In this document: in pieces, positions 39,243-56,412 of the stretch
Layout: each line of letters begins with the position of its first letter
How positions within the stretch are numbered: position 1 is the stretch's first letter
NCBI GenBank assembly: GCA_015488335.1
Contig: WFNZ01000054.1
Location: forward strand, 1 to 56,412
Direction: 5' to 3'
DNA: 56,412 nucleotides
Source of the DNA: Thermovibrio sp.
GTDB taxonomy: Bacteria; Aquificota; Aquificia; Desulfurobacteriales; Desulfurobacteriaceae
The notes under the pieces: model-generated
Databases searched by the model: none
What the model saw: the letters and a program-made list of their open reading frames with translations, nothing else
What the model was told of the DNA's origin: nothing
Program-made: the position numbers and the translations under genes

Positions 39243-40436
39243 TTACTGTAAAACTTCAGGAGGAACGACTGCATAAGTTTTTGAAACTTCCCTTGAAAGG
39301 GATTTTATTGCATCTGTTGGAGCAACGTTGGAGAGCTCCTCTATTTTTTCTCCAACTTTTACTTTTATTACTTCATCTCCGTGTGGAGAGTAGTAAGAGT
39401 ATGCAACCTTTGAGGGTTCTACAACCTCAAAGTAGAACTCTGTAGGAAATCCTGCTTTTTCAACTTTTTCTTTGAGCTCTAAAAGGTCAGAGGGTTTGAC
39501 TTCAACCGTTCGGAACAGTTCTCTTCTGACAAACCGTTTTGAAAGGTCGGAAATTACTCTGTCTTTAGCGTTCTGTAGGTTGTATATGGAACAGATGATA
39601 TGGCCGTCTGTAAGTCTGAAAAATTCCTCTATGCTGTTATTCTTAAGGCAGTTTTTCAGGCTCGGATCTATCGGCAGTTCTTCTCCGTTTAAGAGGAGCT
39701 CCCTCATTCTTTTTACAATTTTTTGGAGAAGAACTTGAGCGGAGAGATTTACCTTGTGGAAGTAGACCGTCCAGTACATCTGATACCTTGACATTACATA
39801 GGATTCAAGGGCATTAAAACCTTTGGAGCTCCATACCAGCTCTCCGCTTTCAACTTGGGCGGAAATGAGGATCCGATTCGTATCTATCCTTCCAAAAGAG
39901 ACTCCCGTGTAGAAGGCGTCTCTTTTCAGGTAGTCTAACCTGTCACAGTCTAACTGGCTTGAGACTAACTGGTACTTAAAGGGCTGTTCAGTCTCTTTCC
40001 TCAAAATTTTCTTTGTCTCTGAAATCAGCTCTCTGTCAATTCCCGTTTCTGCTTCCACTATGTCAAGGGCTTTTTGTGTAAGTTCCTCGTGGTTAAAGGG
40101 AAGGATATAACCTTCAAGGGCGTGGGAAAAGGGAGAGTGGCCTAAATCGTGGGTCAGGGCTGCAAGCTTTACAGGTAGTGTTTCATCGTCCGTAAATGTA
40201 TAACCGTTTAATTTCAAGTAATTAAAGGCCTTTTCAACTAACCAGTATACCCCTAAGGAGTGTTGAAACCGGGTATGTTCGGCTCCGGGGTAGACCAGGT
40301 AACAGGGACCCAACTGACGAATGTACCTGAGACGTTGTAGTGGGGAGCTCCTTAAAACTTTGTCAACGGGAGCTCTCCTTTCTACCAGTATAAATTCTTC
40401 GTAAACAGGGTCCATTAACAGTTTATACTTCTTCAC
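39243..40436 (-). CDS. HD-domain phosphohydrolase (dNTPase/SAMHD1-like)
   Basis: A 397-residue HD-superfamily enzyme. Metal ligands are seen as R-F-Q-H-S-L-G (first His), LTHDLGHSPFSHAL (His-Asp), and the downstream Asp in SSQLDCDRLDYLKRDAFYTG. This layout is typical of the dGTPase/SAMHD1-like YdhJ-type family that hydrolyses dNTPs or related nucleotides. The precise substrate is not known. It overlaps the Fur-like gene by 14 bases. Confidence 0.85.
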   Translation of the reverse strand: MKKYKLLMDPVYEEFILVERRAPVDKVLRSSPLQRLRYIRQLGPCYLVYPGAEHTRFQHSLGVYWLVEKAFNYLKLNGYTFTDDETLPVKLAALTHDLGHSPFSHALEGYILPFNHEELTQKALDIVEAETGIDRELISETKKILRKETEQPFKYQLVSSQLDCDRLDYLKRDAFYTGVSFGRIDTNRILISAQVESGELVWSSKGFNALESYVMSRYQMYWTVYFHKVNLSAQVLLQKIVKRMRELLLNGEELPIDPSLKNCLKNNSIEEFFRLTDGHIICSIYNLQNAKDRVISDLSKRFVRRELFRTVEVKPSDLLELKEKVEKAGFPTEFYFEVVEPSKVAYSYYSPHGDEVIKVKVGEKIEELSNVAPTDAIKSLSREVSKTYAVVPPEVLQ

Positions 40437-40851
40437 CTTTACACTCTTTGCAGATTCCGTAGCAGATAGCTGTACAGCTTACAGGTTCCCCTACAGATTC
40501 TACCTCTTTTCTATTTACCTTAGGGATTGTGTCAAGGTCGTATATCTTTCCGCACTTCAGACAGACAAAGTGGCTGTGGGGTTCAACCCTTGCGTCGTAC
40601 CTGACCTTGTCCTTCAAAGTTGGAACCCTCTGAACGAGACCTACAGATTCAAGGCTTGAGAGGGTTCTGTAAACTGTGGTGAGTGAAATTCCCTCTATTT
40701 TGTCCTTCAGCTCCTCAAAAAGTTCTTCTGCTGAAGGGTGGTCGTGCCTTTGGGCAATGGCCTTATAAACGGCAAGCCTTTGGGGAGTTACCTTAAGTCC
40801 AAGAGCCCTTGCCTTTCTCTTAAATTCCTCAACTCTCCTTTCAAGATCCAT
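40423..40851 (-). CDS. Fur family regulator (PerR-like)
   Basis: A 142-residue metal-dependent repressor. The N-terminal winged helix has LKVTPQRLAVYKAI and SLTTVYRTLSSLESVGLV. The C-terminal dimerisation domain has EPHSHFVCLKCGKIYDLD with the regulatory His residues and a first CxxC, and a second CxxC near the end (GICKECKG), so a structural Zn(Cys)4 site is likely. PerR versus Fur cannot be settled by motif alone. It is a candidate regulator of metal or oxidative-stress genes. Confidence 0.85.
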   Translation of the reverse strand: MDLERRVEEFKRKARALGLKVTPQRLAVYKAIAQRHDHPSAEELFEELKDKIEGISLTTVYRTLSSLESVGLVQRVPTLKDKVRYDARVEPHSHFVCLKCGKIYDLDTIPKVNRKEVESVGEPVSCTAICYGICKECKGEEV

Positions 40852-40903
40852 TTTTTACCTCTGCATACTTGTTTTAAGAGCAAACTATTTGTATATGCTT
40901 AAT

Positions 40904-41845
40904 TTATTCCTCAAATCCGAAAAAGTCTCCCACCTTTACCCTGTAGCCTCTTATGAACTCCTCTCCCGATATTTCTTTTTTCCCTTCAGGTTTGAGCCTT
41001 TCAATTTTCAGGGCTCCACTTCCTGTTGCAACTATTAGCTCTCTATCTGCCTTTACCACCTCTCCCGGCTTTCCTATACCTTTAACAGGTTCAGCCTTCA
41101 AAATCTTCAATCTTTTCCCTCTGAACGTTGTATATGCGGAAGGCCATGGGGTAAAGGCTCTTATTTTGTTGAATATCCTTTCTGCGCTCTCGTTCCAGTC
41201 AATTCTCCCCATCTCTTTACTTATCTGGGGGCAGTAGGTAGCTTCCTCCTCTTTCTGGGGAACGGGCTTTAATTTTCCTGAAATATAAAGGGGGAGCGTT
41301 TCAGAAAGGAGCTCCGCTCCTACCTTTGATAGTTTGTCGTGGAGGGTTTGGGCATTGTCCTCTTTCTCTATCTTCACTTTTCTCTGGCTTATTATGTCTC
41401 CGGCGTCAAGCTTGGGAATTACTTTCATTACCGTTACGCCGGTCTCTTTCTCTCCATTAAGGAGTGCCCATTGGATGGGGGAAGCTCCTCTGTACTTGGG
41501 TAGGAGCGAGGCATGAATGTTTATGGTTCCATACTTTGGAAGGTCTAAAAGCCACTTGGGGAGGATCTTACCGTAGGCGGCAACAACTATTACGTCGGGG
41601 TTTATTTCAGAGAGTTTTCTCTTAAGCTCCTCGTTCTCCTTGACATTTTCCGGCTGGTAAACCGGAATTCCTGCCTTTTCAGCAACTACTTTTACAGGGG
41701 GTGGTGTCAATTTCTTTCCCCTGCCTGCAGGTCTGTCGGGCTGGGTGACAACCAGTTTTACATCGTAGCCCTCTTCAATCAGTTTTTTTAGTGGAGGAAC
41801 TGCGAACTCTGGAGTTCCCATAAAAACGACCTTAATCTTTTTCAC
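40904..41845 (-). CDS. fmt: Methionyl-tRNA formyltransferase
   Basis: Formylates initiator Met-tRNA using 10-formyl-THF. It has FMGTPEFAVPPL, the folate site INIHASLLPKYRGASPI with the catalytic Asn-x-His, and the Asp of KLDAGDII, plus a C-terminal OB-like domain. I start it at GTG 41845, preceded by GGAGGT, giving 313 residues. An in-frame ATG 24 bases upstream lies inside the preceding gene and would give a non-homologous extension. It overlaps the Sua5-like gene by 14 bases. Confidence 0.93.
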   Translation of the reverse strand: MKKIKVVFMGTPEFAVPPLKKLIEEGYDVKLVVTQPDRPAGRGKKLTPPPVKVVAEKAGIPVYQPENVKENEELKRKLSEINPDVIVVAAYGKILPKWLLDLPKYGTINIHASLLPKYRGASPIQWALLNGEKETGVTVMKVIPKLDAGDIISQRKVKIEKEDNAQTLHDKLSKVGAELLSETLPLYISGKLKPVPQKEEEATYCPQISKEMGRIDWNESAERIFNKIRAFTPWPSAYTTFRGKRLKILKAEPVKGIGKPGEVVKADRELIVATGSGALKIERLKPEGKKEISGEEFIRGYRVKVGDFFGFEE

Positions 41846-42446
41846 TGAATACCTCCAACAGTTTTTCAAAGGGAAAAGCCCCTTTCCTTAAGAGTTCCGG
41901 TTTTCCCCTCAGCAGAGAGACGAGTGTGGAAGGTCTACCGTAGGTTTTTCCCTCTACACAGAGGGATACCCTGTTTTTAAAGTAGTTGTAACAGTCGGAG
42001 CAGTTCTCTGCCGGTTTTCCACCCTCAGGGTTTGCGCTGGGAGCAAAGAGTGGATGGGAGAGTTCTATAACCTTTAATAAGAATTCATCTTTTGGAACTC
42101 TTATGGCAATATTCCCTCTTCCCGTTATCTCCTTTAGTGGAGAGTTCTCTTTCAGGGGAAGCACAACTGTCAACCTTTCCGGGAAAATTCTGTTGAGTTT
42201 TTCTTTTGTTCCTTCAGGAAAAAGAACTCCTAACTCCTCTGCCCTATCAAGTGAGTTAAAGATAACTATCAGCGGCTTTTCAGGATTTCTCCTTTTAAGC
42301 CTGTAGATTTCTGTAAAAACGGCCTTGGAGAGGGAGCTCCCAATAAGCCCGTAAAGGGTATCTGTAGGAGAACAGACAAGCTTTTCTTCCTTTATAAACT
42401 CTGCCACCAATGGGGCGTTAGACAGTTCTTTCTTAATCCTCTCCAT
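41832..42446 (-). CDS. Sua5/YrdC-type L-threonylcarbamoyladenylate synthase
   Basis: Makes threonylcarbamoyl-AMP for the t6A modification of ANN-decoding tRNAs. The 204-residue protein has the family signatures CSPTDTLYGL near the N-terminus, KRRNPEKPLIVIF, and the C-terminal SAN-(P/x)-E-G-G-K-P segment (APSANPEGGKPA) that binds ATP/threonine. It has the single-domain TsaC length. It overlaps the DUF89 gene by 14 bases and fmt by 14 bases, giving a tRNA-related block. Confidence 0.88.
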   Translation of the reverse strand: MERIKKELSNAPLVAEFIKEEKLVCSPTDTLYGLIGSSLSKAVFTEIYRLKRRNPEKPLIVIFNSLDRAEELGVLFPEGTKEKLNRIFPERLTVVLPLKENSPLKEITGRGNIAIRVPKDEFLLKVIELSHPLFAPSANPEGGKPAENCSDCYNYFKNRVSLCVEGKTYGRPSTLVSLLRGKPELLRKGAFPFEKLLEVFSEKD

Positions 42447-43332
42447 CTTCCTCTTTTATCTCAAGGAGGTGCTTGTTGTAGAGGAAGATTAGATCTCCGA
42501 CGTTGCAGTGGAGCTCCCTTGCAACAGGTTCACACTTTGCTTTCAGTATAAAAAAGATGTCCTTATCGTCTACTCCGTCTAACGTTTCAAAGTTTGCCTG
42601 ACCTTTTGATATAACGAAAAATGCCCTTTCCCAGGCTTTTTTAAACTCATCCGATGCAAACTCAAAGTCAACACCTATGTAGTCCTTTCCTGTTGTTATC
42701 AGTTCGTCTGCAATCTCGTTTGCTCCAGTTTTTACTGCGTCCTCAACGGTTGCATCGTTGAGAATAGGACCTCCTCTAACGGCCAGAATAACTTTCATTC
42801 CTCTCTCTTTTAGCTCTCTTATTAAGAACTTGTCAAAAACTATTTCCCCGGCGTTGTCTGCAACGTAGAGGACCGTTTTCCCGGGAACTAAAAACCGCTC
42901 TAAAATTGCTTCGTCAAAATAGGCAAAGGGGGTTTTAAAGAAGTTCTTTATCTCTTCTTCAAGATCAAAAACGTTTGGAACGGCAAAGTCAATCACGTTT
43001 CCAAGAGCTGCAAGTTTTATGGCAACTGCAAGCCTATCTTCAGCTTTTTCGTAAATCTCTTTCCTGAGCTGAGGTTCAAGCTTAAGGGCTATTGAGTTGT
43101 ATTTATCCTTCAGAACTTTGTATGGATCTTCTACCCCAGACAGTTTCTTGAATATTCTGTGAATGTAAGTCGCGTTGTGGCCGGGGGATTTCTCCGGCTG
43201 AAGGTCTTTGTATATGAACTTTGCAGCTTCTCTTTCAATTTCTATTGTCTTTTCTCTGCTAAGTCCTGCAACTTCAGCAGCTTTCCTTACTTGGTTCAGG
43301 AAGCAAGGGAGGCAGAGCGGATAAACTTTCAT
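42433..43332 (-). CDS. DUF89 / damage-control phosphatase-like protein
   Basis: A 299-residue protein of the DUF89 (ARMT1-like) family of metal-dependent phosphatases that remove damaged or overabundant phosphometabolites. The N-terminal YPLCLPCFLNQ with its CxxC is typical of the microbial type. The metal-site motif DNAGEIVFDKFLI and the later KGQANFETL are clear. A linked metabolite cannot be deduced. Its neighbour purE may only be coincidental. It lies 2 bases downstream of purE. Confidence 0.85.
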   Translation of the reverse strand: MKVYPLCLPCFLNQVRKAAEVAGLSREKTIEIEREAAKFIYKDLQPEKSPGHNATYIHRIFKKLSGVEDPYKVLKDKYNSIALKLEPQLRKEIYEKAEDRLAVAIKLAALGNVIDFAVPNVFDLEEEIKNFFKTPFAYFDEAILERFLVPGKTVLYVADNAGEIVFDKFLIRELKERGMKVILAVRGGPILNDATVEDAVKTGANEIADELITTGKDYIGVDFEFASDEFKKAWERAFFVISKGQANFETLDGVDDKDIFFILKAKCEPVARELHCNVGDLIFLYNKHLLEIKEEDGED

Positions 43333-43334
43333 CG

Positions 43335-43802
43335 TTAACCCTCTAAAACCTTTTTCTTCATCTCTTTTCTGTACTCTTTTAGTTTTTGGCGCAACTCTGT
43401 GTACTTAATCGCCATTATCTCTGCTGCCAGAACGGCTGCGTTCTTTGCTCCTGCCTTTCCGATTGTTACAGTTGCAACGGGGACTCCTCCGGGCATTTGG
43501 ACTATTGAGAGAAGAGAGTCAATGCCTTTTAAAGGGGAAGCGTCAAGAGGAACTCCAATTACAGGAAGGGTAGTTTTTGCTGCTATAACTCCACCAAGGT
43601 GAGCGGCGTATCCTGCGGCAGCGATGATCACGTCGTACTCTTCTTCTGCTCTTTCACAGAAAGAGATAACTTCATCAATTGTTCTGTGGGCAGAAAGGAC
43701 TTTAACGTCGTAAGGGATTCCAAATTCTTCTAAGGTTTTTGTGCAGTTTTCCATTACCGGCATGTCGGATCTGCTTCCCATAATTACGGCAACTTTCTTC
43801 AC
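43335..43802 (-). CDS. purE: N5-carboxyaminoimidazole ribonucleotide mutase
   Basis: Class I PurE of purine biosynthesis, a 155-residue protein with the substrate-binding MGSRSDMPVM near the N-terminus, VLSAHRT, AAAGYAAHLGGVIAAKTTLPVIGVP and MPGGVPVAT. All are conserved. purK is not adjacent. The start overlaps the end of the lipoprotein gene by 4 bases. Confidence 0.96.
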   Translation of the reverse strand: MKKVAVIMGSRSDMPVMENCTKTLEEFGIPYDVKVLSAHRTIDEVISFCERAEEEYDVIIAAAGYAAHLGGVIAAKTTLPVIGVPLDASPLKGIDSLLSIVQMPGGVPVATVTIGKAGAKNAAVLAAEIMAIKYTELRQKLKEYRKEMKKKVLEG

Positions 43803-44671
43803 TTTACCACCTCCGCTTCCACCGGTTTTGATCTGTTTCCGCTTTTGTCAACAGCCCTTATTTCCACCTTTTTGGGGCATTCTGGCAGTGTTAAGTATAT
43901 TCCAGAAGTCATGAAAGTTCTGTTTCCTGCTTTTACGACGTAGTAGATAACGTCTTTAGAAGGTGATGGGTCCCAAACGGCAGTGCAGATTTTTCCTTCT
44001 ATTAGATAGGCGTGGAAAGGCGGGAGAGGTGGAACTCTATCCTCTGGTGTAGCCGGTATCGGTTCTGTTAACTTCCCTTTCAGTTTACCCTTTGAAAAGC
44101 GGAACCGGTAAACGTAAGTCTTTCCATTATTTACTCTGTTATCTATAAACTTTTTTCCTTTGAATTCTGCGTAGGGTTTTAAGAACGGGAATTTCTGGTT
44201 TCTGAATACTTCAACTGTAAATTCGGGATTTGAAACTTTGATTATAACCCTACTGTCTGCACCTTTAACTTGAACTTTGGGAACTTTGTGGAGCGGTTGT
44301 TTCCCTACTATACAGACCGGTTCTGAAGGGGAGCTCCCCCTTCCCTCGTAAATGGCTGAAACGGAATAACACCTTTTTTCTCCCGCTTTTATCGGTTTGT
44401 CAAGAAAGTAATTTTTCTCCGTTTTAACTTTTTCTTTACCGAAGTTTACGTTAACAAGGTATCTAACCCGTTTCGGGTTGGGTAGTTTTCTTCCATCTCT
44501 ATAGGTTTTTACTCTTTTCCAGCTGATGATAGGTCTGTTAAAATCCTGAAAGAGGGTGGTAATTTCCGGAGTTGAAGGTTCTTTGGGAAGTGGAGGTAGC
44601 GGAGCTCCCCTGTGGCCACAGGTAGAAAATGAAAAGAGGAGAGGCAGGGTAATCAGAAAAAACTTTTTCAA
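43799..44671 (-). CDS. Lipoprotein with fibronectin type III-like modules
   Basis: A 290-residue exported lipoprotein. The signal peptide ends with Phe-Ser-Thr-Cys18-Gly, followed by a Pro-rich HRGAPLPPLPKEP stretch common at the mature N-terminus of small lipoproteins. Beta-rich repeats follow, with SVSAIYEGRGSSPSEPV-like fibronectin type III text. This suggests a periplasmic or outer-membrane-anchored structural role, for example in envelope assembly. No specific function can be given. It is divergent from efp. Confidence 0.65.
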   Translation of the reverse strand: MKKFFLITLPLLFSFSTCGHRGAPLPPLPKEPSTPEITTLFQDFNRPIISWKRVKTYRDGRKLPNPKRVRYLVNVNFGKEKVKTEKNYFLDKPIKAGEKRCYSVSAIYEGRGSSPSEPVCIVGKQPLHKVPKVQVKGADSRVIIKVSNPEFTVEVFRNQKFPFLKPYAEFKGKKFIDNRVNNGKTYVYRFRFSKGKLKGKLTEPIPATPEDRVPPLPPFHAYLIEGKICTAVWDPSPSKDVIYYVVKAGNRTFMTSGIYLTLPECPKKVEIRAVDKSGNRSKPVEAEVVK

Positions 44672-44737
44672 AACTCCTCCGGTTAAATTTTGGTTTGCTG
44701 TTATAATTTTCCCAAAACCTTTCCAGGAGGTCTAAAA

Positions 44738-45310
44738 GTGGCTTCTATAGATGTGAACCAAATTGCAAAAGGGATGAAGTTGGAGATAGAGGGAGCTCCC
44801 TACGAAATCATAGACTACCAGCACGTTAAACCGGGAAAAGGACAGGCCTTTGCAAGGATAAAACTGAAAAACCTGAAAACTGGAAATGTTGTTGAAAAGA
44901 CCTACAAAGTGGGCGAAAAGCTCCAGCTTGCCGACTTTGAAGAGAGGGAAATGGAGTATATCTACAACGACGGTGACTACTACTACTTTATGGACTCAAA
45001 AACCTACGAACAGGTAGGAGTTCCTGCTACAGCCCTCGGTGAAAGGGCAAAATTCTTAAAGGAAAACACTCCTGTAATGGTTCAGTTCTACAAGGATGAG
45101 GCAATCTCGGTTAAACTTCCGAAGAGCATCGTTCTTCAGGTTGTAGATACAGAACCGGGCTTTAAGGGAGACACGGTTTCCAACGTTACAAAACCCGCAA
45201 CCCTTGAGACGGGAGCGGTTGTTCAGGTTCCTATGTTCATAAACATTGGAGATATGGTTAGAGTGAACCCAGAAACCGGAGAGTACATAGAAAGGGTAAA
45301 TATTAAGTAG
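44738..45310 (+). CDS. efp: Translation elongation factor P
   Basis: Rescues ribosomes stalled at polyproline. I chose GTG 44738 (AGGAGG 7 bases upstream), giving 190 residues starting VASIDVNQIAKGMK. An ATG further upstream would add a spurious 16-residue leader. The KOW-like N-terminal domain carries HVKPGKGQAF with the Lys that is modified in many bacteria. Two OB domains follow, ending GEYIERVNIK. No EpmA/EpmB homologue is in the window, so modification status is unknown. A TATAAT at 44702-44707 is a possible -10. It leads the accB-accC operon. Confidence 0.95.
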   Translation: MASIDVNQIAKGMKLEIEGAPYEIIDYQHVKPGKGQAFARIKLKNLKTGNVVEKTYKVGEKLQLADFEEREMEYIYNDGDYYYFMDSKTYEQVGVPATALGERAKFLKENTPVMVQFYKDEAISVKLPKSIVLQVVDTEPGFKGDTVSNVTKPATLETGAVVQVPMFINIGDMVRVNPETGEYIERVNIK

Positions 45311-45319
45311 GAGGAACAG

Positions 45320-45757
45320 TTGGCCGATATTGAAAAGGTTAGGGAGCTCCTTAAGAGCCTTGAAAACTCCTCGGTGGAAGAACTTGAGTTAGAGACCGAA
45401 GGGTTAAAAATAAAAGTAAAGTTTAAGAGGGAAGGAGCTTCGGTTCCTATTCCCTCAGAGAGTCCTTTAACCCCTGAACCCTCCCCTGCTGAGGAGAAAG
45501 CACAGCCTGAGGAGAACTATTACGTTGTTGAATCCCCGATGGTAGGGACCTTCTACAGAGCCCCTGCTCCTGGAGCAGAGCCTTTTGTAAAAGAGGGAGA
45601 CTACGTTGAAAAAGGTCAGACCCTATGTATAATTGAAGCCCTCAAAGTGATGAACGAGATTGAGTCGGAAGTTTCTGGAATTGTCAGGAAAATCCTGGTT
45701 GAGAACGGCCACCCTGTTGAGTATGGCCAGCCGCTCTTCTACATAGAACCTAAATAG
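45320..45757 (+). CDS. accB: Acetyl-CoA carboxylase biotin carboxyl carrier protein
   Basis: Carries biotin for fatty acid synthesis. The 145-residue protein has an N-terminal helical part, a Pro/Ala/Glu-rich linker (about residues 50-72), and a C-terminal lipoyl/biotinyl domain. The biotinylation motif is EALKVMNEI (usual EAMKMMNEI), with the target Lys near residue 111. The start is a TTG with GGAGG upstream. It is followed by accC 8 bases downstream. Confidence 0.93.
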
Positions 45758-45765
45758 GATTTTGG

Positions 45766-47115
45766 ATGTTCAGGAAAGTTCTTATTGCCAACAGAGGAGA
45801 AATAGCCGTAAGGATAATAAGGAGCTGCAGGGAGTTAGGTATTAAAACGGTTGCTGTCTATTCAACGGCAGACCGGGAATCGCTCCACGTTTACCTTGCA
45901 GATGAATCTGTCTGTATAGGTGGGCCTCAACCTCAACAGAGTTACTTGAACATACCGGCGGTTATTGCCGCAGCTGAGCTTTCTGGAGCTGATGCTATCC
46001 ATCCCGGTTACGGCTTTCTTTCAGAGAACCCCGGCTTTGCAGAGATATGTAACGCCTGCGGCATAAAGTTTATAGGACCTTCTCCTGAAACAATGATCCT
46101 AATGGGGGATAAGGCAAAGGCGAGGAAAGTGGCCCAAGAGGCAGGTGTTCCCGTTGTTCCGGGAAGTGGAGTTTGCCGTAGCGTTCAGGAAGCACTGAGG
46201 GAAGTTGAAAGGATAGGTCCACCGGTCCTTGTAAAAGCTGCTCACGGTGGCGGTGGAAGGGGGATGAGGCTCATTACCTCTCTCAATGAGGCGGAAACAC
46301 TCATAGCTACTGCAATGGCTGAGGCAGAAGCAGCTTTTGGGAACGGGGAGGTTTACGTTGAAAAGTTTATAGAGGAACCTCGCCACGTTGAAATACAGTT
46401 AATTGCCGATGGCCACGGTAACGTTTACACCTTTGGTGAGAGGGAGTGTTCCCTCCAGAGAAGACACCAGAAAGTTGTTGAAGAAGCCCCCTCTCCTTTT
46501 GTTGATGAAAAACTGAGAGGAGAGCTCTCTAAAGCAGCTAAAAGGCTTGCCGAATATATAAACTACGAGGGTGCTGGAACTGTAGAGTTCTTGGTTGATA
46601 AAGAAAAGAACTTTTACTTTATTGAGATGAATACTCGGATACAGGTTGAACATCCCGTTACAGAAATGGTTACAGGGAAGGACCTTATAGCTCTTCAACT
46701 GAAAGCTGCTGCCGGAGAGAAGCTTGACTTAGATCAAATCAAGCTGAACGGCCACGCCATAGAATTTAGAATAACATGTGAAGATTACACTGAAAACTTT
46801 AAGCCCGTTCCGGGAAAGATAGAGAAACTCCTTCTACCGGGTGGCTTTGGAGTAAGGATAGATACTTACATTTACGAGGGATATTCAGTTCCCGTTTATT
46901 ACGACTCTCTCCTTGGCAAGCTCATAGTCTGGGGAGAGAATAGGGAAGAAGCTATAGAGAGAGGAAAAAGAGCCCTTTTAGAGTTCCTTATAGAAGGGAA
47001 ACTTAAAACGACAATTCCTTTCCACCTTAAGCTTTTAGAAACTGAGCAGTTTAGAGAAGGAAAGTTTAATACCAGAACCCTTGAGGAAGAAATACTGCCT
47101 GGTCTGAAACAGTGA
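45766..47115 (+). CDS. accC: Acetyl-CoA carboxylase biotin carboxylase
   Basis: ATP-grasp enzyme that carboxylates biotin on AccB. The 449-residue protein has the N-terminal [19 protein letters not shown], the ATP-grasp glycine loop [17 protein letters not shown], the [19 protein letters not shown] segment and [18 protein letters not shown] with its catalytic Arg and Glu. All are typical of AccC. It forms a unit with accB and efp. accA and accD are not in the window. Confidence 0.96.
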
Positions 47116-47143
47116 ATCTTTTAAAACAGATTCCGGAGGAAAG

Positions 47144-47656
47144 ATGTCTTCTCAATCAAAGACAGAAAAAGTTAAAATTTGGTTAAAGGAGTACCTTAGC
47201 GAGTTTGGTGAGTATAGTGGAACTTTAGAGGAACTCTCCGGATTAACCGGAGCTTCCCCTTACCTTATAAAGAAAGTTTTAAAGGAACTTGAAGAGGAAG
47301 GTTTTTTAAAGTCTGAGACAAAGAGGGGTAAAGGTCTCCTTATAAGGCTTTGTGAGAAAAAGCCGGAAGAGAAAGAAATTCCGGCTACTGAGGAGGAGAA
47401 AATGGGGGAAGAGAAAGAGGTTCAGAAGAGTGAAGAGAAGAAGGAGAAAAAGGAGAAGAAAAAATCACTTCAGGATACAGTTCTGACCTCTTTGTTGGGA
47501 AAGGACGTAACAGTTTTCCTCATAAGTGGAACACGACTTGAGGGCAAACTTTTAGATTTTGATAACTTCACGTTGGCCATGACTGCTCCAAAGGGAAAGT
47601 CTTTGGTTTATAAGCACGCCGTTGCCACAATTCTCTTTGACGTGGAACAGAAATGA
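47144..47656 (+). CDS. Winged-helix-Hfq fusion protein 1
   Basis: A 170-residue protein with three parts. (1) Residues about 8-68: a winged helix-turn-helix (GEYSGTLEELSGLTGASPYLIKKVLKELEEEGFL). (2) Residues about 71-107: a highly charged Lys/Glu linker. (3) Residues 108-166: an Sm/Hfq domain with SLQDTVLTSLLG, DVTVFLISGTRLEGKL, DFDNFTL and LVYKHAVATI. Proximal-face Gln, Asp, Phe and YKH are kept. Distal-face Tyr25 and Lys31 (E. coli numbering) are Phe and Arg, and the rim arginines are missing. Its stop overlaps the second fusion gene by 4 bases, so they are cotranslated. It presumably is the genome's Hfq-like RNA chaperone, but ordinary hfq elsewhere is not excluded. Confidence 0.85.
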   Translation: MSSQSKTEKVKIWLKEYLSEFGEYSGTLEELSGLTGASPYLIKKVLKELEEEGFLKSETKRGKGLLIRLCEKKPEEKEIPATEEEKMGEEKEVQKSEEKKEKKEKKKSLQDTVLTSLLGKDVTVFLISGTRLEGKLLDFDNFTLAMTAPKGKSLVYKHAVATILFDVEQK

Positions 47657-48150
47657 AAAGGTACAGGACTTTAGAAGAAGCTCAAATTGCCCTAATAGAA
47701 CTCCTTGAGGAGCAGGGAGAGTTCAGAGGAAGTGTTGAGGAGCTTGCTGAGGAGCTCTCTGTTAAATCCGAGCAGATAAAACCTCTTCTTCAAATTCTGA
47801 AATCTTCTGGGGATGTTGTCTACGAGGAAGTTGGTGACGAGATTATTGTTAGACCTGCTACTATGATCTCCTCTTTACTGCCCCCTGTCCTTACGGAGGA
47901 ACAGCAGAGGGAAATTGAAGAGAAGGTTAACTTAGGTTATAAGATTATTGCCTGTTCAACTATGAGAGGAGTCCAGAGCAGGGAGCTCCGCTCCGCCCTG
48001 GGAAAGAGGATTGTAGTCTACTTCAGGAATGGAAGTAAAGTAGAGGGTAAGTTAAAGGGTTTTGATAGATTTTGCTTAAAACTTAAAAATTACCGGGGAA
48101 ACATACTGGCCTATAAACACGCCATATCAACCATCGTTTATAAACCGTAG
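47653..48150 (+). CDS. Winged-helix-Hfq fusion protein 2
   Basis: A 165-residue paralogue of the preceding protein with the same layout. The helix-turn-helix-like N-terminus covers residues about 8-68 (GEFRGSVEELAEELSVKSEQIKPLLQIL). A linker runs to about 106. The Hfq-like domain at 107-163 contains VQSRELRSALG, IVVYFRNGSKVEGKL, GFDRFCLKL and AYKHAISTI. Here the Tyr and Lys equivalent to E. coli Tyr25/Lys31 are present, unlike in protein 1. The two could form mixed rings with different RNA faces. The gene ends inside a convergent gene (13-base overlap). DNA, RNA or protein binding by the N-terminal domain is unknown. Confidence 0.8.
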   Translation: MKRYRTLEEAQIALIELLEEQGEFRGSVEELAEELSVKSEQIKPLLQILKSSGDVVYEEVGDEIIVRPATMISSLLPPVLTEEQQREIEEKVNLGYKIIACSTMRGVQSRELRSALGKRIVVYFRNGSKVEGKLKGFDRFCLKLKNYRGNILAYKHAISTIVYKP

Positions 48151-48785
48151 TTTAAAGAATACCCCTTTGATCTGTGGCTTTTAATCTCAAGTTCCGGACT
48201 AACCCTTTTTAATGTCTTTCTGAGCGTAGATATGTAGACCGGCAGGCTTTCTTCTTTTATTCCCAAGTTGAGGAAGTTTTTAAACTCAACTACCTTTCCA
48301 GGCCTGCTGAAGAGTTTCTTTAAGACCAGAGCTCCCCTATAAGATAGCTGCTCTTTAACTTTTATACTGTTCTCCTCAAAGAGTTCTAACTTTGATTCGG
48401 GAAGTGTGAATGTCAGTTTGACCGTTCTCCCTTTAGGAAGTAAAAGTTTAATATTCTCAAGGCTTTTAACCAGTGCCTTGAGGAAAGATTCAATTGATCT
48501 CTGGTTTCTGCAGATTGTAAATACGTTTTCTCTGTCAAGTTGAAGGTTGTTTTCCTCATCTTCTACAACTAATATTGGTTTTCTCTTTATTCCGTCTATA
48601 ACTATAGACTGAAGAAGATGTTTACTCACTGCATAAACGTCTACTATGGGATTTTCACTTAAACTGCTGCTAAGGTGGAAGTAATTTGTTTGGAGTTTGT
48701 GGTCGCCTATTCTAATCAGCCGAGTTATAATTTCTTTAAGGGAAGTGTCCTGTTGACAAATGCTGATCGTTATCACTTTTTCCAT
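48138..48785 (-). CDS. OmpR/PhoB-type DNA-binding protein without a standard receiver domain
   Basis: A 215-residue protein. The C-terminal part (about residues 125-213) is an OmpR/PhoB winged helix, with GALVLKKLFSRPGKVVEFKNFL, LPVYISTLRKTLKRV and SHRSKGYSLNY at the expected positions. The N-terminal part contains ILVVEDEENN, but at about residue 75 and not at the start, so it is not an ordinary receiver and the phosphorylatable Asp is doubtful. No kinase is adjacent. I start it at ATG 48785 (GAGGGG upstream). It faces the wHTH-Hfq pair and overlaps its end. Confidence 0.75.
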   Translation of the reverse strand: MEKVITISICQQDTSLKEIITRLIRIGDHKLQTNYFHLSSSLSENPIVDVYAVSKHLLQSIVIDGIKRKPILVVEDEENNLQLDRENVFTICRNQRSIESFLKALVKSLENIKLLLPKGRTVKLTFTLPESKLELFEENSIKVKEQLSYRGALVLKKLFSRPGKVVEFKNFLNLGIKEESLPVYISTLRKTLKRVSPELEIKSHRSKGYSLNYGL

Positions 48786-48952
48786 TTTAAGCCCCCTCAT
48801 AGTTTTTGTATAGCTCTTTTATTTGTTGCCTATTCTAACAAAGCTTCTATTCTAATGGATTAATTTTTTTTACTTTAACCCTCAATTCTTCTTTTCTATT
48901 ACACTAAGCTTTAACTGTATAATTGGGTGAAATTTTTACCCCAGGAGACACC

Positions 48953-51073
48953 ATGAAGGAGCTCCTTTCAAAGCTCAACGAACAACAGAAAGAGGCTGTT
49001 CTCTACTTTGAATCTCCCCTTCTCATACTGGCCGGTGCTGGCTCGGGAAAGACCAGGGTTATAACCTACAAAATAGCCTACATGGTGAAGGAGCTCTCCT
49101 TTCCTCCAGAGAGAATTTTAGCAATTACTTTTACAAACAAGGCTGCTCGTGAAATGAGAGAAAGGATTGAGACCCTTTTAGGAAAAGAGGTTCCTGTAGC
49201 CGTTTCAACTTTCCATTCATTCTGCGTTAAACTCTTAAGGGCTCACGCAGGGCGGATTGGCTACAGTCCCAATTTTGTTATTCTTGATACGGAAGATAAG
49301 AGACGGCTCATAAAAGAGGTTCTAAAAGAGCTAAACCTTGACCCGGAACAGTACAGCCCTTCAGCGATTTCTTCGGTTATAAGCAACGTAAAGAACGGTA
49401 TGTTCTCTTTAGAATCTGCAGAAGTTTACTACGAGAAACTGAAACCGGTTTACGACCTCTACAACAGAAAACTCAAAGAACTAAACGCCTTTGATTTTGA
49501 TGACCTTCTGGTCTACGGAAGGGAACTCCTTCTTCAGAAGGATCTTAAAGATTACTACTCCCGTTTCTTCCAGTACGTTTTGATAGATGAGTATCAGGAC
49601 ACAAACAGAATTCAGTATGAAATTGCAAAGTCTTTAACAGAAGATAGGGGAAACATCTGTGTTGTAGGAGATGAAGATCAGTGTATTTATACCTGGAGGG
49701 GGGCAAACATAGACAATATTCTTTCCTTTGAAAGGGATTTTAAAAATGCAAAAGTCATAAAGCTTGAGAAGAACTACAGATGCTCTAAGACCATTCTTGA
49801 GGCGGCAAACGCTGTAATTGAAAACAACAGACTTAGGAAGGGTAAACGACTCTATACAGACAATCCCAACGGACATCCCATAGGTCTTTTCAGGGCAGAA
49901 ACCGACCTTGAAGAGGCCATTTTTGTTGCTAAAACCGTTAAAAAACTTATTAACAGAGGATTGAAACCTTCAGATATTGCCGTTTTCTACAGAACCAATG
50001 CCCTTTCCCGAGTTTTTGAAGATGCTCTCAGAAGAGAAGGTATCCCCTACCAGATTGTAGGAGGTGTTAAGTTCTACGAGAGAAAAGAGGTAAAAGATAT
50101 ACTGGCCTACTTAAGGCTTGTCGTTTCAGATTCAGATGTCATTTCTCTCTTCAGGATTTTAAACACACCTAAGAGAGGGCTTGGCAGTGCTGTTGAAGAG
50201 AAGTTGAGAAAAATTGTGGAAAGAGAGAGAAACTGGAACAGGGCTCTTTTAGAGTTAAAAGAGCAGCTCAGAATGGAAAAGCAGAGGAGGGCTGTTGAGG
50301 AGCTCCGCACCACCCTTTTAACACTGAAGGAGAAATTGGGGGAGCTCCCACCCTATGACTTTGTAAAGTTTATAACCGTTTCAACCGGATATAAAGAGTT
50401 CATTAAAAAGGAGTTTCCTGACGACTGCGAGCAGAGGCTTGAGAACGTGGAAGAGCTTGGCAACACCCTTCAGGAGTTTTCAGAGAGGAGTTCTCTCAAG
50501 GGAGAAGAGCTCTACTTAGAGTTTATCTCCACTCTAACCCTCTCTTCTGATCAGGATGAACTTGAAGAGAGCGACAGAGTTACCCTTATGACCGTTCATG
50601 CCTCAAAAGGCCTTGAATTCCCCGTGGTTTTCGTAACCGGTCTTGAAGAGGGAACTTTTCCCCACGTGAAATCCTCAGAAACCAGCAGTGAGATTGAAGA
50701 AGAAAGGCGCCTCTTCTACGTTGCTATAACGAGAGCTAAGAAACAGCTGTTCCTCTCTTACTCAAAGAGGCGACGCCTCTTTGGTAGTTACAGACCCATG
50801 AAACCTTCAAGATTTGTCTCTGAGATTCCATCCCACCTGATAAGAGAGGTTGAGAGGCGTTCAGAAAGGGAAGGTCGGTTAAACGGTTCCTCTCCAAAAC
50901 CTGCAGAAGAGCCTGTAAGGGATAAAGCCCCTAAAATTGTTTTTCACAAGAAGTTTGGTAAAGGAGTTGTTAAGAGGGTTGAAGGCTCTGGAGAGAGCGC
51001 AAAGGTTACCGCCTTCTTCGCCAACTATGGTGAAAAGACGATAATTATGAAATTCCTAAAAGTTCTCGGTTAG
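48953..51073 (+). CDS. UvrD/PcrA-type superfamily 1 DNA helicase
   Basis: A 3'-5' helicase for repair and replication-transcription conflict. It has the Q motif (LNEQQKEAV), Walker A GAGSGKT, TFTNKAAREMRERI, the DEYQDTN box, GDEDQCIYTWRGA, NYRC and VTLMTVHASKGLEFPVVFV, all standard for UvrD/PcrA. The C-terminus (HKKFGKGVVKRVEG, about residues 660-706) matches the PcrA RNA polymerase-binding Tudor domain. The start is ATG 48953, preceded by AGGAG, giving 706 residues; an in-frame TTG 30 bases upstream is less likely. Confidence 0.93.
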   Translation: MKELLSKLNEQQKEAVLYFESPLLILAGAGSGKTRVITYKIAYMVKELSFPPERILAITFTNKAAREMRERIETLLGKEVPVAVSTFHSFCVKLLRAHAGRIGYSPNFVILDTEDKRRLIKEVLKELNLDPEQYSPSAISSVISNVKNGMFSLESAEVYYEKLKPVYDLYNRKLKELNAFDFDDLLVYGRELLLQKDLKDYYSRFFQYVLIDEYQDTNRIQYEIAKSLTEDRGNICVVGDEDQCIYTWRGANIDNILSFERDFKNAKVIKLEKNYRCSKTILEAANAVIENNRLRKGKRLYTDNPNGHPIGLFRAETDLEEAIFVAKTVKKLINRGLKPSDIAVFYRTNALSRVFEDALRREGIPYQIVGGVKFYERKEVKDILAYLRLVVSDSDVISLFRILNTPKRGLGSAVEEKLRKIVERERNWNRALLELKEQLRMEKQRRAVEELRTTLLTLKEKLGELPPYDFVKFITVSTGYKEFIKKEFPDDCEQRLENVEELGNTLQEFSERSSLKGEELYLEFISTLTLSSDQDELEESDRVTLMTVHASKGLEFPVVFVTGLEEGTFPHVKSSETSSEIEEERRLFYVAITRAKKQLFLSYSKRRRLFGSYRPMKPSRFVSEIPSHLIREVERRSEREGRLNGSSPKPAEEPVRDKAPKIVFHKKFGKGVVKRVEGSGESAKVTAFFANYGEKTIIMKFLKVLG

Positions 51074-51082
51074 GAGGTTGCC

Positions 51083-52234
51083 TTGAAGCCTATAAAGAGA
51101 AGACTTCTCACCCCCGGGCCAACGATGGTTCCAGAGAGGGTTCTTGAAGCCCTTTCCCGTCCTACCCTCTACCACAGGTCTCCTGAGTTTAAAGAGATTT
51201 TCCTTGAGACCAGGAAGCTTCTTGGGAAAATCATGAGGACAGAGGGAGAAGTTCTTATACTTACTTCTTCTGGAACAGGAGCAATGGAGGCTGCCGTTGC
51301 TAACCTCTTTAACCCGGGAGACAGCGCTGTAGTTGTTGTTGGCGGAAAGTTTGGTCAGAGGTGGGAGGAACTGTGTAGAACCCACGGCGTAAACCCGATA
51401 GTTGTAAACGTTGAATGGGGAAGGGCTGTTGACCCTGCAGAAGTTGAGAGAGCTCTTTCTGAAAACCCTGGCGTTAAGGGAGTTCTCATCCAGATATGCG
51501 AAACTTCTACGGGAACCGTTCACGACGTTAAGGAGATAGGAAAAATTCTCAGGAACTTCCCTGACGTTCTTTTAGTGGCCGACGGAATAACCGCTTATGG
51601 CGTCTATGACATTCCCACAGATGAGTGGGGAATAGACGTTGCAATTACAGGTTCTCAGAAAGCCCTCATGACCCCACCCGGGCTTGCCGTCATAACCCTC
51701 AACGAAAAGGCGGTTAACAGACTTGTTGAAAAACCCAGAACCTACTACTTCAACCTGAAAAAAGAGATAAAGCAACAGAAAAAAGGGCAAACGGCCTACA
51801 CAACGGCCACGAACCTTGTTGTTGCCCTTAATGAAGCGCTAAAAATGATTCTTAAAGAAGGTATTGAAAACGTTGCAAAGCGTCATGCTATCCTTGCAGA
51901 GGCTACAAGGGCTGGAGTGAAGGCGATGGGGTTGGAGCTCCTCTCATACAGCCCGGCAAATGGCGTAACGGCAGTCCTTGCACCTGAAGGCATTAACGGT
52001 CAGGATGTTGTGAAGATAGCCAGGGAGAGGTACGGGATAACCATAGCCGGCGGTCAGGAACACCTGAAGGGCAAAATCTTCCGCCTCTCCCATATGGGCT
52101 ACGTAGACCAGTTTGATGTTCTAACCGGCCTTGAAGTTACAGAGCTTGCACTGAAAGAGTTGGGCTACAGCAAGTTCAAATTTGGAGACTCCGTTAAAGC
52201 GGCAATGGAAGTTTTCTACTCGGCGAATCTGTAG
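51083..52234 (+). CDS. Class V aminotransferase (serine-glyoxylate/alanine-glyoxylate type)
   Basis: PLP enzyme of 383 residues. It begins RRLLTPGPTMVPERVLEAL. It has TSSGTGAMEAAVANLF with the cofactor phosphate loop, the Asp in VADGITAYGV and the Lys in GSQKALMTPPGLAV that binds PLP. In autotrophs such enzymes link serine, glycine and alanine, or act with serA (phosphoserine route) as an alternative to serC. The true substrate is unclear. The start is TTG 51083 with AGGAGG. It follows the helicase by 9 bases. Confidence 0.85.
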   Translation: MKPIKRRLLTPGPTMVPERVLEALSRPTLYHRSPEFKEIFLETRKLLGKIMRTEGEVLILTSSGTGAMEAAVANLFNPGDSAVVVVGGKFGQRWEELCRTHGVNPIVVNVEWGRAVDPAEVERALSENPGVKGVLIQICETSTGTVHDVKEIGKILRNFPDVLLVADGITAYGVYDIPTDEWGIDVAITGSQKALMTPPGLAVITLNEKAVNRLVEKPRTYYFNLKKEIKQQKKGQTAYTTATNLVVALNEALKMILKEGIENVAKRHAILAEATRAGVKAMGLELLSYSPANGVTAVLAPEGINGQDVVKIARERYGITIAGGQEHLKGKIFRLSHMGYVDQFDVLTGLEVTELALKELGYSKFKFGDSVKAAMEVFYSANL

Positions 52235-52269
52235 TATAGTGGTTCTTTAAACAGCTTAAAGGAGAGACT

Positions 52270-52692
52270 ATGAAAAAGTATCGCTACACAGTTGAGTACA
52301 CCCTCACTGCTCCCGATGGAACAGTAATTGACTCTACAGAAGGAAGAGAGCCTTTCTCCTTCACCACAGGCCAGAACGAGGTTATCCCCGGCTTTGAAAA
52401 GGAAGTGTCTCAGATGGAAGAGGGGGAGGAGAAGACCTTTACACTTCAACCTTCAGAGGCCTACGGAGAGAGGAGAGAAGAGCTTGTTGAGACCCTTCCC
52501 CGCCATATGTTTCAGGGAATAGAGCTCCAGAGAGGCCAAACACTTCAGGGAACAACGCCAGAAGGACAGACCTTTTTGGTTAGGGTTGTGGACTTTAACG
52601 ACGAAACCGTAACCATAGATCACAACCACCCACTTGCCGGCGTTCCTTTAACCTTCAGGGTTAAAGTTCTTAAAAAAGAGGAGGTTGCTTAG
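52270..52692 (+). CDS. SlyD-like FKBP-type peptidyl-prolyl isomerase
   Basis: Peptidyl-prolyl isomerase/chaperone of 140 residues. The FKBP part (VEYTLTAPDGTVIDST, GQNEVIPGFEKEV, PSEAYGER) is interrupted by an insert-in-flap segment (PRHMFQGIELQRGQTLQG) as in SlyD. DHNHPLAG is the conserved SlyD signature. The His-rich metal-binding tail of E. coli SlyD is absent. SlyD assists nickel delivery to hydrogenases in E. coli, which may matter in a nickel-importing organism. It overlaps the next gene by one base. Confidence 0.9.
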   Translation: MKKYRYTVEYTLTAPDGTVIDSTEGREPFSFTTGQNEVIPGFEKEVSQMEEGEEKTFTLQPSEAYGERREELVETLPRHMFQGIELQRGQTLQGTTPEGQTFLVRVVDFNDETVTIDHNHPLAGVPLTFRVKVLKKEEVA

Positions 52693-53276
52693 TGGAGACG
52701 GTGGTTGTTTCAGAGGCTCCACAACAGCTTGTTAGTAAGCTCATATTCAACACAGTTGTTCCAAGGCCTATAGCCTGGATAACAACAGTTTCAAAGGTGG
52801 GTAAGGTTAACCTTGCCCCTTTCTCTTTCTTTAACGCTATAACAACAAAACCGCCACTTTTGTTTGTTTCTGTTGGTAAGAGGAAAGACGGCACCTTGAA
52901 GGATACGGCCAGAAATATCCTTGAAACAGAAGAGTTCGTGGTTAACGTTGTTTCAGAGGAGTTCCTTGAGAAGATGCACCTCTCCGGTAAAGATTTTCCC
53001 CCGGAAGTGAGCGAGGCGGAGGAGCTTAACGTTGAACTTGAACCTTCTAAACTTTTAAAACCGCCTAAGGTGAAAAACGTCCCTGCAGCTCTTGAGTGCG
53101 TTCTCAGGGAGCATTTACAGTTAGGGGCAACCCCTATGGATGTCTTTATAGGAGAGGTAGTTGCTGTTCACTACAGCCCGGAGCTCCTTAAAACCCAGAA
53201 AGGTTTGATTGGAAGATTGGGAGGAAAGAGGTACTGTTGCGTTTCCGATGAGATAGACCTTTCGGAGCTCTCTTAA
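52692..53276 (+). CDS. Flavin reductase-like FMN-binding protein
   Basis: A 194-residue protein of the flavin reductase-like, FMN-binding split-barrel family. It has the typical FNTVVPRPIAWITTVSKVGKVNLAPFSFFNAITTKPPLL N-terminus split across residues 18-55 and the C-terminal FIGEVVAVHYSP region. Such proteins reduce free flavin or act as FMN-dependent oxidoreductases, and the partner is unknown. The start is GTG 52692 overlapping the slyD-like stop. A strong terminator follows. Confidence 0.8.
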   Translation: METVVVSEAPQQLVSKLIFNTVVPRPIAWITTVSKVGKVNLAPFSFFNAITTKPPLLFVSVGKRKDGTLKDTARNILETEEFVVNVVSEEFLEKMHLSGKDFPPEVSEAEELNVELEPSKLLKPPKVKNVPAALECVLREHLQLGATPMDVFIGEVVAVHYSPELLKTQKGLIGRLGGKRYCCVSDEIDLSELS

Positions 53277-53281
53277 GAAAT

Positions 53282-53303
53282 GGGGGCAACCGCCCCCGTT
53301 TTA
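53282..53303 (+). terminator. Rho-independent terminator after the flavin reductase gene
   Basis: GGGGGC (53282-53287), loop AACC, GCCCCC (53292-53297) then GTTTTAA. On the opposite strand it can also stop the UbiD-family transcript. Confidence 0.85.
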
Positions 53304-53376
53304 ATAAAGTCAGAGATTTATTCATTATTCTTGGCCATCCATTATTATATGGAAACTTTATTAAGTTTGTCAATAT

Positions 53377-54864
53377 TTAAACTCCCCAGCTCCATGGATT
53401 CTTCTTTTCCGGCGGAGAGGGTAGTCCCAATCTCTCCCATATCCTGTCCACCCTTTTCTTAACCTCAGGATCCATCTCAATGTCCGGCGGCCAATCCCTT
53501 GTAAAACCTTCACTCTTCCACTTCTTAGTTGCGTCAATACCCATTTTGCTTCCGTAAAAGGGCAGGGGTGAAGTGTGGTCAAGGGCGTCAACGGGACCTT
53601 CCGTAAAGATTACATCCCTTTTAGGATCAACGTTGTTTCCCCACCTCCACAAAACCTCTCCTATATCGTGGACGTTTGTATCCTTATCAAAAATTACAAT
53701 GTTCTTCGTGAAGCTCATCTGACCCATTCCCCAGAGGGCAGAAATGACCTTTTTGGCGTGTCCGGGGTAGCGCTTATCTATAGAGATAAAGGCAAAGTTG
53801 TGGAAGACCCCTTCAATGGGAAGGCACATATCAACAATTTCTGGAAGCTGAGTTTTGAGAAGCGGCAGGAATATCCTTTCAGTTGCCTTTCCTATGTAGC
53901 AGTCTTCCATTGGCGGTTTGCCAACTATCGTTGCCGGGTAGATGGGGTCTCTCCTGTGAGTTATGCAGGTAATGTGGAAAACAGGGTAGAAGTCGGGCAG
54001 TGAGTAGTAACCTGTGTGGTCTCCAAAGGGCCCTTCAAAACGGAACTCTTCTGTATCAACGTAGCCTTCTAAAACTATCTCTGCGTTTGCAGGAACCTCA
54101 AGATCAACAGTTTCGCACTTAACCATTTCAACGGCCTTTCCCCTTATAAACCCGGCAAAAACCATCTCATCAACGTCCTCGGGAAGAGGAGCCGTTGCCG
54201 AGTAGATAACTGCCGGGTCGGAGCCTATGGCAACGGCAACGGGAAACCTCTTTATTCCCATTCTCTTTGCTTTCCAGAAGTGTTTTGCTCCAACCTTGTG
54301 CCAGTGCCAGTGCATTCCCGTTGTGTTCTTTGAGTAGACGTGGAGCCTGTACATTCCGCAGTTTCTCTCGCCGGTTTCCGGGTCTTTGGTGAAAACCAGC
54401 GGCAGGGTTATGAACCTCCCGCCGTCTTTAGGCCAGCAAAAGAGTATTGGAAACTTTGAGAGGTCTGGCTCTTTCACTATTACTTCTTTGCAGGGAGCTT
54501 TTTCTCTCTTTACCTCTCTGGGGAAAATATCTGCAATCTTTTTCAGCTCAACCAGCTTTTTCAGCTTATCAATAAAACCCGACGGCTTTTCAGGCTTTAA
54601 GAGTTTTGCTGCCCTTTTCCCTATTGAGTCAGGGTCGTCTTCAAGGGCAAGAACCATCCTTTTATAACTGGCAAATAGGTTTATTGCAACCGGAATTTCC
54701 CTGCCGTCAACGTTCTTAAACAGAAGGGCTGGTCCTCCGGCTTTAACCGTTCTATCTGCAATCTCTGTGATCTCAAGGTAAGAGCTTACGGGGTAGTCAA
54801 TCTCTTTAAGTTCCCCTTCCTGTTTCAGTTTCTGGATAAACTCTCTTAAATCTTTATAGGCCAT
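53377..54864 (-). CDS. UbiD-family decarboxylase (menaquinone/ubiquinone-type)
   Basis: A 495-residue prenyl-FMN-dependent decarboxylase. It begins YKDLREFIQKLKQEGELKEI. It has GGPALLF near residue 43, the MYRLHVYSKNTTGMHWHWHKVG segment, AIGSDPAVIYSATAPLP, the EGYVDTEEFRFEGPFGDHTGYYS region with conserved Glu residues, and the C-terminal EVLWRWGNNVDPKRD. This form is found in menaquinone biosynthesis (classical UbiD or futalosine-route MqnL). Quinone decarboxylation is therefore likely, but substrate is not shown. A ubiX/prenyltransferase gene is not in the window. Confidence 0.88.
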   Translation of the reverse strand: MAYKDLREFIQKLKQEGELKEIDYPVSSYLEITEIADRTVKAGGPALLFKNVDGREIPVAINLFASYKRMVLALEDDPDSIGKRAAKLLKPEKPSGFIDKLKKLVELKKIADIFPREVKREKAPCKEVIVKEPDLSKFPILFCWPKDGGRFITLPLVFTKDPETGERNCGMYRLHVYSKNTTGMHWHWHKVGAKHFWKAKRMGIKRFPVAVAIGSDPAVIYSATAPLPEDVDEMVFAGFIRGKAVEMVKCETVDLEVPANAEIVLEGYVDTEEFRFEGPFGDHTGYYSLPDFYPVFHITCITHRRDPIYPATIVGKPPMEDCYIGKATERIFLPLLKTQLPEIVDMCLPIEGVFHNFAFISIDKRYPGHAKKVISALWGMGQMSFTKNIVIFDKDTNVHDIGEVLWRWGNNVDPKRDVIFTEGPVDALDHTSPLPFYGSKMGIDATKKWKSEGFTRDWPPDIEMDPEVKKRVDRIWERLGLPSPPEKKNPWSWGV

Positions 54865-54887
54865 TATTTACTTCTCCTTTCAATTTT

Positions 54888-54899
54888 GTAGAATTCTAC
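54888..54899. promoter_or_regulatory. 12-bp perfect palindrome between divergent genes
   Basis: GTAGAATTCTAC lies in the 54-base spacer between the UbiD-family gene and the Nif3-like gene. It contains TAGAAT on both strands, so it might be overlapping -10 elements of two divergent promoters or an operator. Confidence 0.35.
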
Positions 54900-54918
54900 C
54901 ACCTTAAGGAGAGAAGAT

Positions 54919-55689: not shown

Positions 55690-55690
55690 C

Positions 55691-56404: not shown

Positions 56405-56412
56405 TTCTGCTC

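Follow-up and report, generated by a model that had tools for sequence, protein, structure and literature searches.

Tandem genes predicted to encode fusions of a winged helix with an Hfq-type Sm domain in Thermovibrio and its relatives

Introduction

Hfq is usually a small stand-alone protein that assembles into a homohexamer. In Thermovibrio sp., two consecutive genes encode proteins (P1 and P2) in which an Hfq-type Sm domain stands behind an additional N-terminal domain, which raises the question of what such proteins are and what they could be doing together. The DNA analyzed here, called the window, is a stretch of 56,412 nt from the forward strand of contig WFNZ01000054.1 (assembly GCA_015488335.1). 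A preliminary description had proposed that the two proteins form heteromeric rings with divided RNA-binding faces, through which RNA binding could be linked to transcription. Our search of the open-access literature, which left subscription journals largely outside, returned no description of a winged-helix-Hfq fusion. Taken as a whole, our analysis suggests that the pair is a regulator of a type not described before, one that would connect RNA binding with transcription or with another nucleic acid; the division of the RNA-binding faces is rejected, and the link to transcription is supported as plausible only.

The gene pair and its surroundings

The open reading frames agree with two tandem genes sharing four bases, as first described, and the spacing between P1 and P2 varies from -4 to about +15 nt among relatives (Table 1). 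The three genes preceding the pair are ones which we take, from their sequences and established knowledge, to be efp, accB and accC. Inspection by eye of the regions upstream of P1 and of efp showed nothing beyond ribosome-binding sites and a -10-like box, with no operator-like repeat, and an Rfam scan of window positions 40000-56412 gave zero matches. On the minus strand, a 220-aa protein (48138-48800) is encoded convergently with P2, the two reading frames sharing 13 nt at their ends; it presents a C-terminal OmpR/PhoB-type winged helix just under the Pfam cut-off (24.4 vs 26.2 bits), no receiver domain was recognized in it, and relatives occur in several genomes of the family.

Table 1. Features of the P1-P2 locus, with positions in the window
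Feature	Position	Strand	Evidence
efp, accB, accC, upstream of the pair on the same strand; beside the pair in 7/7 family genera	44690..47115	+	ORFs, synteny
GGAGG ribosome-binding site of gene 1	47135..47139	+	sequence; kept in relatives
Gene 1 (P1), 170 aa: winged helix joined by a charged linker to an Hfq-type Sm domain	47144..47656	+	ORF, Pfam Hfq, AlphaFold2 model, orthologues in family
P1 winged helix, residues 6-69	47159..47350	+	DSSP on AlphaFold2 model, alignment, joint wHTH profile
P1 linker, disordered, highly charged, residues 72-104	47357..47455	+	pLDDT below 50
P1 Sm domain with YKHA motif, residues 108-165	47465..47638	+	VIA-align to E. coli Hfq, family invariance
Stop/start ATGA overlap of P1 and P2, 4 nt	47653..47656	+	sequence
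Gene 2 (P2), 165 aa: acidic winged helix joined by a structured linker to a basic Hfq-type Sm domain	47653..48150	+	ORF, Pfam Hfq and LSM, AlphaFold2 model, orthologues
P2 winged helix, residues 7-68, without basic wing	47671..47856	+	AlphaFold2, structural matches, charges
P2 linker, residues 69-105; helix 82-93, strand 97-101	47857..47967	+	AlphaFold2
P2 Sm domain, residues 106-163	47968..48141	+	VIA-align to C. crescentus Hfq, charges

Domain identification and predicted folds

Like Hfq (PF17209, including the Aquifex aeolicus protein, 5szd/5sze), P1 and P2 have the Sm fold, the YKHA motif of Sm2 and the proximal uridine pocket. They score 52.6 and 46.3 bits, respectively, with the Pfam Hfq profile (cut-off 27); unlike Hfq, they add an N-terminal winged helix and miss the cut-off of the NCBIfam equivalog TIGR02383 (52.6 and 44.0 bits, both under 61.7). 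With the archaeal and eukaryotic LSm proteins (PF01423) they share an Sm1 region with a short Leu-x-Gly-Lys turn, and P2 passes the Pfam LSM cut-off of 23.4 (28.3 bits; P1, with 20.0, is below). The Hfq profile scores higher for both, and the pair differs from LSm proteins by its Hfq-type YKHA motif and its attached winged helix.

AlphaFold2 models built with 22-23 aligned sequences present, in both proteins, an N-terminal winged helix of the plan a1-b1-a2-a3-b2-b3 with a two-stranded wing, followed by an Sm fold made of a helix and five strands (residues 109-165 in P1 and 109-163 in P2). Both checks that could have refuted the preliminary description, an N-terminal part unlike an HTH and a C-terminal domain without the Sm fold, thus came out in its favour. 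The 33-residue linker between the domains of P1 is modelled with low confidence. Compared using VIA-align, the Sm domain of P1 matches E. coli Hfq (Z 11.3, rmsd 1.3 Å, 60 residues aligned) and that of P2 matches C. crescentus Hfq (Z 9.1, rmsd 1.3 Å, 58 residues aligned). For the winged helix of P2, the structural matches were SelB (Z 9.2), Zalpha (Z 8.8) and MarR-type proteins (Z 8.8). In the structure search with P1, Hfq filled the matches listed and the winged helix gave none among them; the evidence for its fold is the AlphaFold2 model of P1, the sequence profile and homology to the winged helix of P2. A joint wHTH profile of both winged helices found AdcR (E 1.3e-4) and, more weakly, PF0095, PH0061 and MntR, and some P1 winged helices match GntR with E values down to 1.1e-5, the types resembled being GntR, MarR and Crp. 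Weak winged-helix matches also include the sigma-54 core-binding, TFE and eS25 types. A misannotation like that of Borrelia BB0268 (PMC11607428) is ruled out because sequence profile, fold and motif agree in P1 and P2. Both proteins are fusions of a winged helix with an Hfq-type Sm domain, each predicted with good confidence, as first described. As a minor point, the residue directly preceding the Sm domain of P2 (residue 105, 47965-47967) is Arg in the window vs Gly in all other aligned family members (STMRGVQS vs STMGGVQS and variants).

RNA-binding residues of the Sm domains

Gln33 and Gln52 have roles on the distal face of Hfq. On the other faces, the uridine pocket is made of Gln8, Phe42, Lys56 and His57, and annealing is driven by the patch R16-R17-E18-R19 (PMC5379935). 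Tallying these positions in 21 P1 and 20 P2 sequences (E. coli Hfq numbering), we found the proximal pocket invariant in P1 and kept in P2, the sole change being Phe42 to Tyr in two P2. The rim patch (N13, R16, R17, R19) is lost in both proteins, where hydrophobic residues, Gly/Asn and a two-residue deletion take its place, so that the rim loop, unlike that of Hfq, is two residues shorter and without arginines. The distal glutamines are missing as well: Gln33 is replaced by Glu33 in both proteins, and Gln52 by Ser52 in P1 and by Ile, Met or Leu in P2. Judged by these residues, both Sm domains would be Hfq domains of a proximal-only type, having kept the uridine site and lost the rim and distal Gln33/Gln52.

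The preliminary description was right that P1 has lost the rim arginines, but the loss is not peculiar to P1, the patch of P2 being gone too. It also noted that P1 is without the distal Tyr and Lys, and P1 does present Phe25 and Arg31; the ordinary Hfq encoded in this genome has these two residues as well, and they therefore do not constitute a specific loss. As P1 and P2 keep and lose the same sites in all the sequences tallied, the proposal that the pair divides the RNA-binding faces between its members is rejected.

Charge asymmetry and conservation

P1 and P2 differ, in fact, not in RNA face but in how their winged helices and Sm domains are charged. Among the family members tallied, the winged helix and the Sm domain of P1 each carry a net charge of -1 to +3, and those of P2 carry -6 to -8 and +10 to +12, respectively. 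The P1 winged helix, about neutral overall, has a basic wing and a basic recognition helix; Lys44 of the recognition helix and Gly62-Lys63-Gly64 of the wing are invariant in both families that have the pair (see below). From this conservation and the charges, we infer that the P1 winged helix binds DNA or structured RNA.

Within P1, invariant positions in the family number 0 of 35 in the linker and 43 of 58 in the Sm domain, which is the most conserved part within the main family (seven genera). Its identity between genera is 90%, vs 80% for the ordinary Hfq of the same family (from four genera). Because the pair is kept across seven genera, and because dN/dS in the domains, where computable, is about 0.01-0.08, a chance arrangement can be dismissed: the pair is maintained by strong selection.

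Distribution in the Aquificota

We surveyed 136 genomes of the phylum Aquificota, 22 of them Desulfurobacteriaceae, and found the fusion confined to this family and a sister family; its carriers are deep-sea vent bacteria of one order. P1 is present in 21 of the 22 Desulfurobacteriaceae genomes, and P2, like the complete pair, in 20, which bears out the conservation of the two genes in tandem; of the exceptions, one lacks P2 at a contig end (G121) and the other is a genome 62% complete. The gene order efp-accB-accC-P1-P2 was the same in each of the seven genera checked. Both sister-family genomes examined (G113 and G114) have a diverged pair, bringing the total to 22 genomes in two families with differing neighbours. 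There, the pair is flanked by ribulose-phosphate epimerase on one side and on the other by a T4-type RNA ligase, the start of which overlaps or touches P2 (L109 6347-8447; L108 84-2169). In the sister family, the winged helix of P1 shares 46-49% identity with that of the window, and the Sm domains have decayed to 16-25% identity (family averages, G114), with a degenerate RNA pocket.

Most genomes with the pair also keep an ordinary Hfq. That of the window genome was found beside miaA (contig C23, 99 bits), which means that the pair does not replace Hfq. In the two sister-family genomes, no recognizable stand-alone Hfq was detected. The RNA ligase was considered as an obligate partner and discarded, being unlinked to the pair in the window genome and not found in several pair-bearing genomes of the family; the T4-type ligase of the window genome (91 bits) lies on contig C26, 18840-19424.

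Outside the order, the fusion was not found among about 255 sampled genomes of other phyla (some represented by few genomes), phages and plasmids, which gave only Hfq-domain or weak winged-helix matches. One long Hfq frame from outside the phylum (G294) proved to be an Hfq extended by a C-terminal tail, in which nothing pointed to a winged helix. An origin from a phage or mobile element is rejected, since the viral contigs searched contained no relatives of the pair and matches in phages and plasmids were limited to the Hfq domain.

Comparison with known regulators and possible mechanism

PafB and PafC are paired wHTH-WYL proteins in which the WYL domain has an Sm fold, the crystal structure shows one HTH buried, and residues of the Sm-2 loop are reported essential for function (PMC6789036). 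Like these and other wHTH-WYL regulators, P1 and P2 are paired paralogues in which an Sm-fold domain comes after a winged helix, and one of the two winged helices is apparently less suited to binding. In contrast to these regulators, the Sm domain belongs to the Hfq family and not to WYL, the C-terminal WCX extension is absent (only a few residues at most follow the last Sm strand in either protein), and the lineage and the neighbouring genes are unrelated. The WYL family (PF13280) gave no match in P1 or P2 in Pfam scans with an E-value limit of 5, nor is it among the Pfam families listed for all P1 and P2 family members; the two WYL matches of the window genome lie elsewhere. By analogy, the pair is PafBC-like in layout and not a member of the WYL family. 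SelB, whose C-terminal winged helices were the top-ranked structural match of the P2 winged helix (others within 1 Z unit), is an elongation factor and in sequence a weak match at most.

The best explanation, which we hold tentatively, is a PafBC-like and probably heteromeric winged-helix-Sm regulator, whose ring, binding, role and targets are deduced from analogy and residue conservation. P1 and P2 would most likely co-assemble into one heteromeric Sm ring. Since the Sm domains bear the proximal site only, this ring would hold single-stranded RNA rich in U (3' tails or nascent transcripts, for example) but would not perform the rim annealing or the distal A-rich binding of Hfq. In Hfq, the N-terminal helix sits on the proximal side of the ring, and for this reason the winged helices should overlie the sole RNA site that is kept. 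The P1 winged helix, on its flexible linker above the proximal face, would contact DNA or structured RNA; the acidic P2 winged helix is an unlikely nucleic-acid binder and could be an arm with a regulatory or partner role, set against the strongly basic Sm domain of P2. Counting for this explanation are the kept uridine pocket, the invariance of Lys44 and the wing in P1, the charge pattern, the conservation of the pair and the PafBC precedent. Counting against it, the P1 winged helix is near neutral overall, the upstream regions show no operator-like repeat by eye, and the SelB- and Zalpha-like matches of P2 leave room for a winged helix that binds RNA instead of DNA. That RNA binding is the universal function is challenged above all by the decay of the pocket in the sister family: with Sm domains at 16-25% identity and a P1 winged helix kept at 47%, RNA binding is not needed everywhere.

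The same evidence can be read in other ways. The near-invariant pocket, together with the SelB and Zalpha matches of the P2 winged helix, would suit an accessory RNA chaperone, a possible if somewhat doubtful reading in which a second heteromeric Hfq-type ring has SelB-like winged helices as RNA-binding or autoregulatory arms and no role in transcription. The acidic P2 arm facing a basic ring would then work like the acidic C-terminal tips of E. coli Hfq, domains that autoregulate (PMC5606850). Both proteins, however, are devoid of the rim patch and of distal Gln33/Gln52 in the presence of an intact ordinary Hfq, and the sister family preserves the P1 winged helix best while its RNA pocket decays. 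It is rather doubtful that the pair is an RNA-gated transcription regulator, arisen separately from WYL and PafBC, in which the heteromeric ring senses U-rich RNA by its proximal face and controls DNA binding by P1.

A plain pair of DNA-binding transcription factors, with the Sm domains as oligomerization scaffold only, would agree with the GntR/MarR/Crp resemblance of the P1 winged helix and with the persistence of the pair in the sister family after loss of the Sm pocket; we consider it unlikely, because a near-invariant pocket and a P1 Sm domain that is the most conserved part across seven genera go beyond the needs of a scaffold. Still less probable is a tether, in which the winged helices would attach to RNA polymerase, the ribosome or a nuclease and the Hfq-like ring would thereby be positioned there. 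It would account for an acidic P2 winged helix without a basic wing and for the sigma-54 core-binding, TFE and eS25 types among the weak matches, but no partner gene beyond efp-accB-accC is conserved next to the pair, and the neighbours differ in the sister family.

If the PafBC-like explanation holds, Hfq has been recruited family-wide into a transcription-factor-like architecture and duplicated with opposite charges. With the pair, the proposal that the Sm-fold domains of bacterial regulators (WYL) bind RNA could also be put to a concrete test. As a natural proximal-only Hfq, the pair opens to study the contribution of a single RNA-binding face, and in the sister family it has persisted where no stand-alone Hfq is recognizable.

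Origin of the fusions

P1 and P2 can be aligned over nearly their full length, winged helices included, with about 32% identity (E 5.6e-15). Their sequences therefore point to a winged-helix-Hfq fusion that probably arose once and was then duplicated, before the two families split. In a tree of the Sm domains, the main-family fusions stand apart from all stand-alone Hfqs with 87/98 support, on 64 columns of weak resolution, and the decayed sister-family domains fall on long, unreliable branches. An origin from a second stand-alone Hfq, the short paralogue linked to miaA and hflX, is unsupported, the fusions being separate from all stand-alone Hfqs in this weak tree. Other Aquificota often have two stand-alone Hfqs per genome (L110-L116, L087-L093, L006, L016, L055, L058, L062). 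The shorter of the two, 62-73 aa long, frequently neighbours miaA and/or hflX; the longer frequently neighbours an ADP-ribosylglycohydrolase-like gene.
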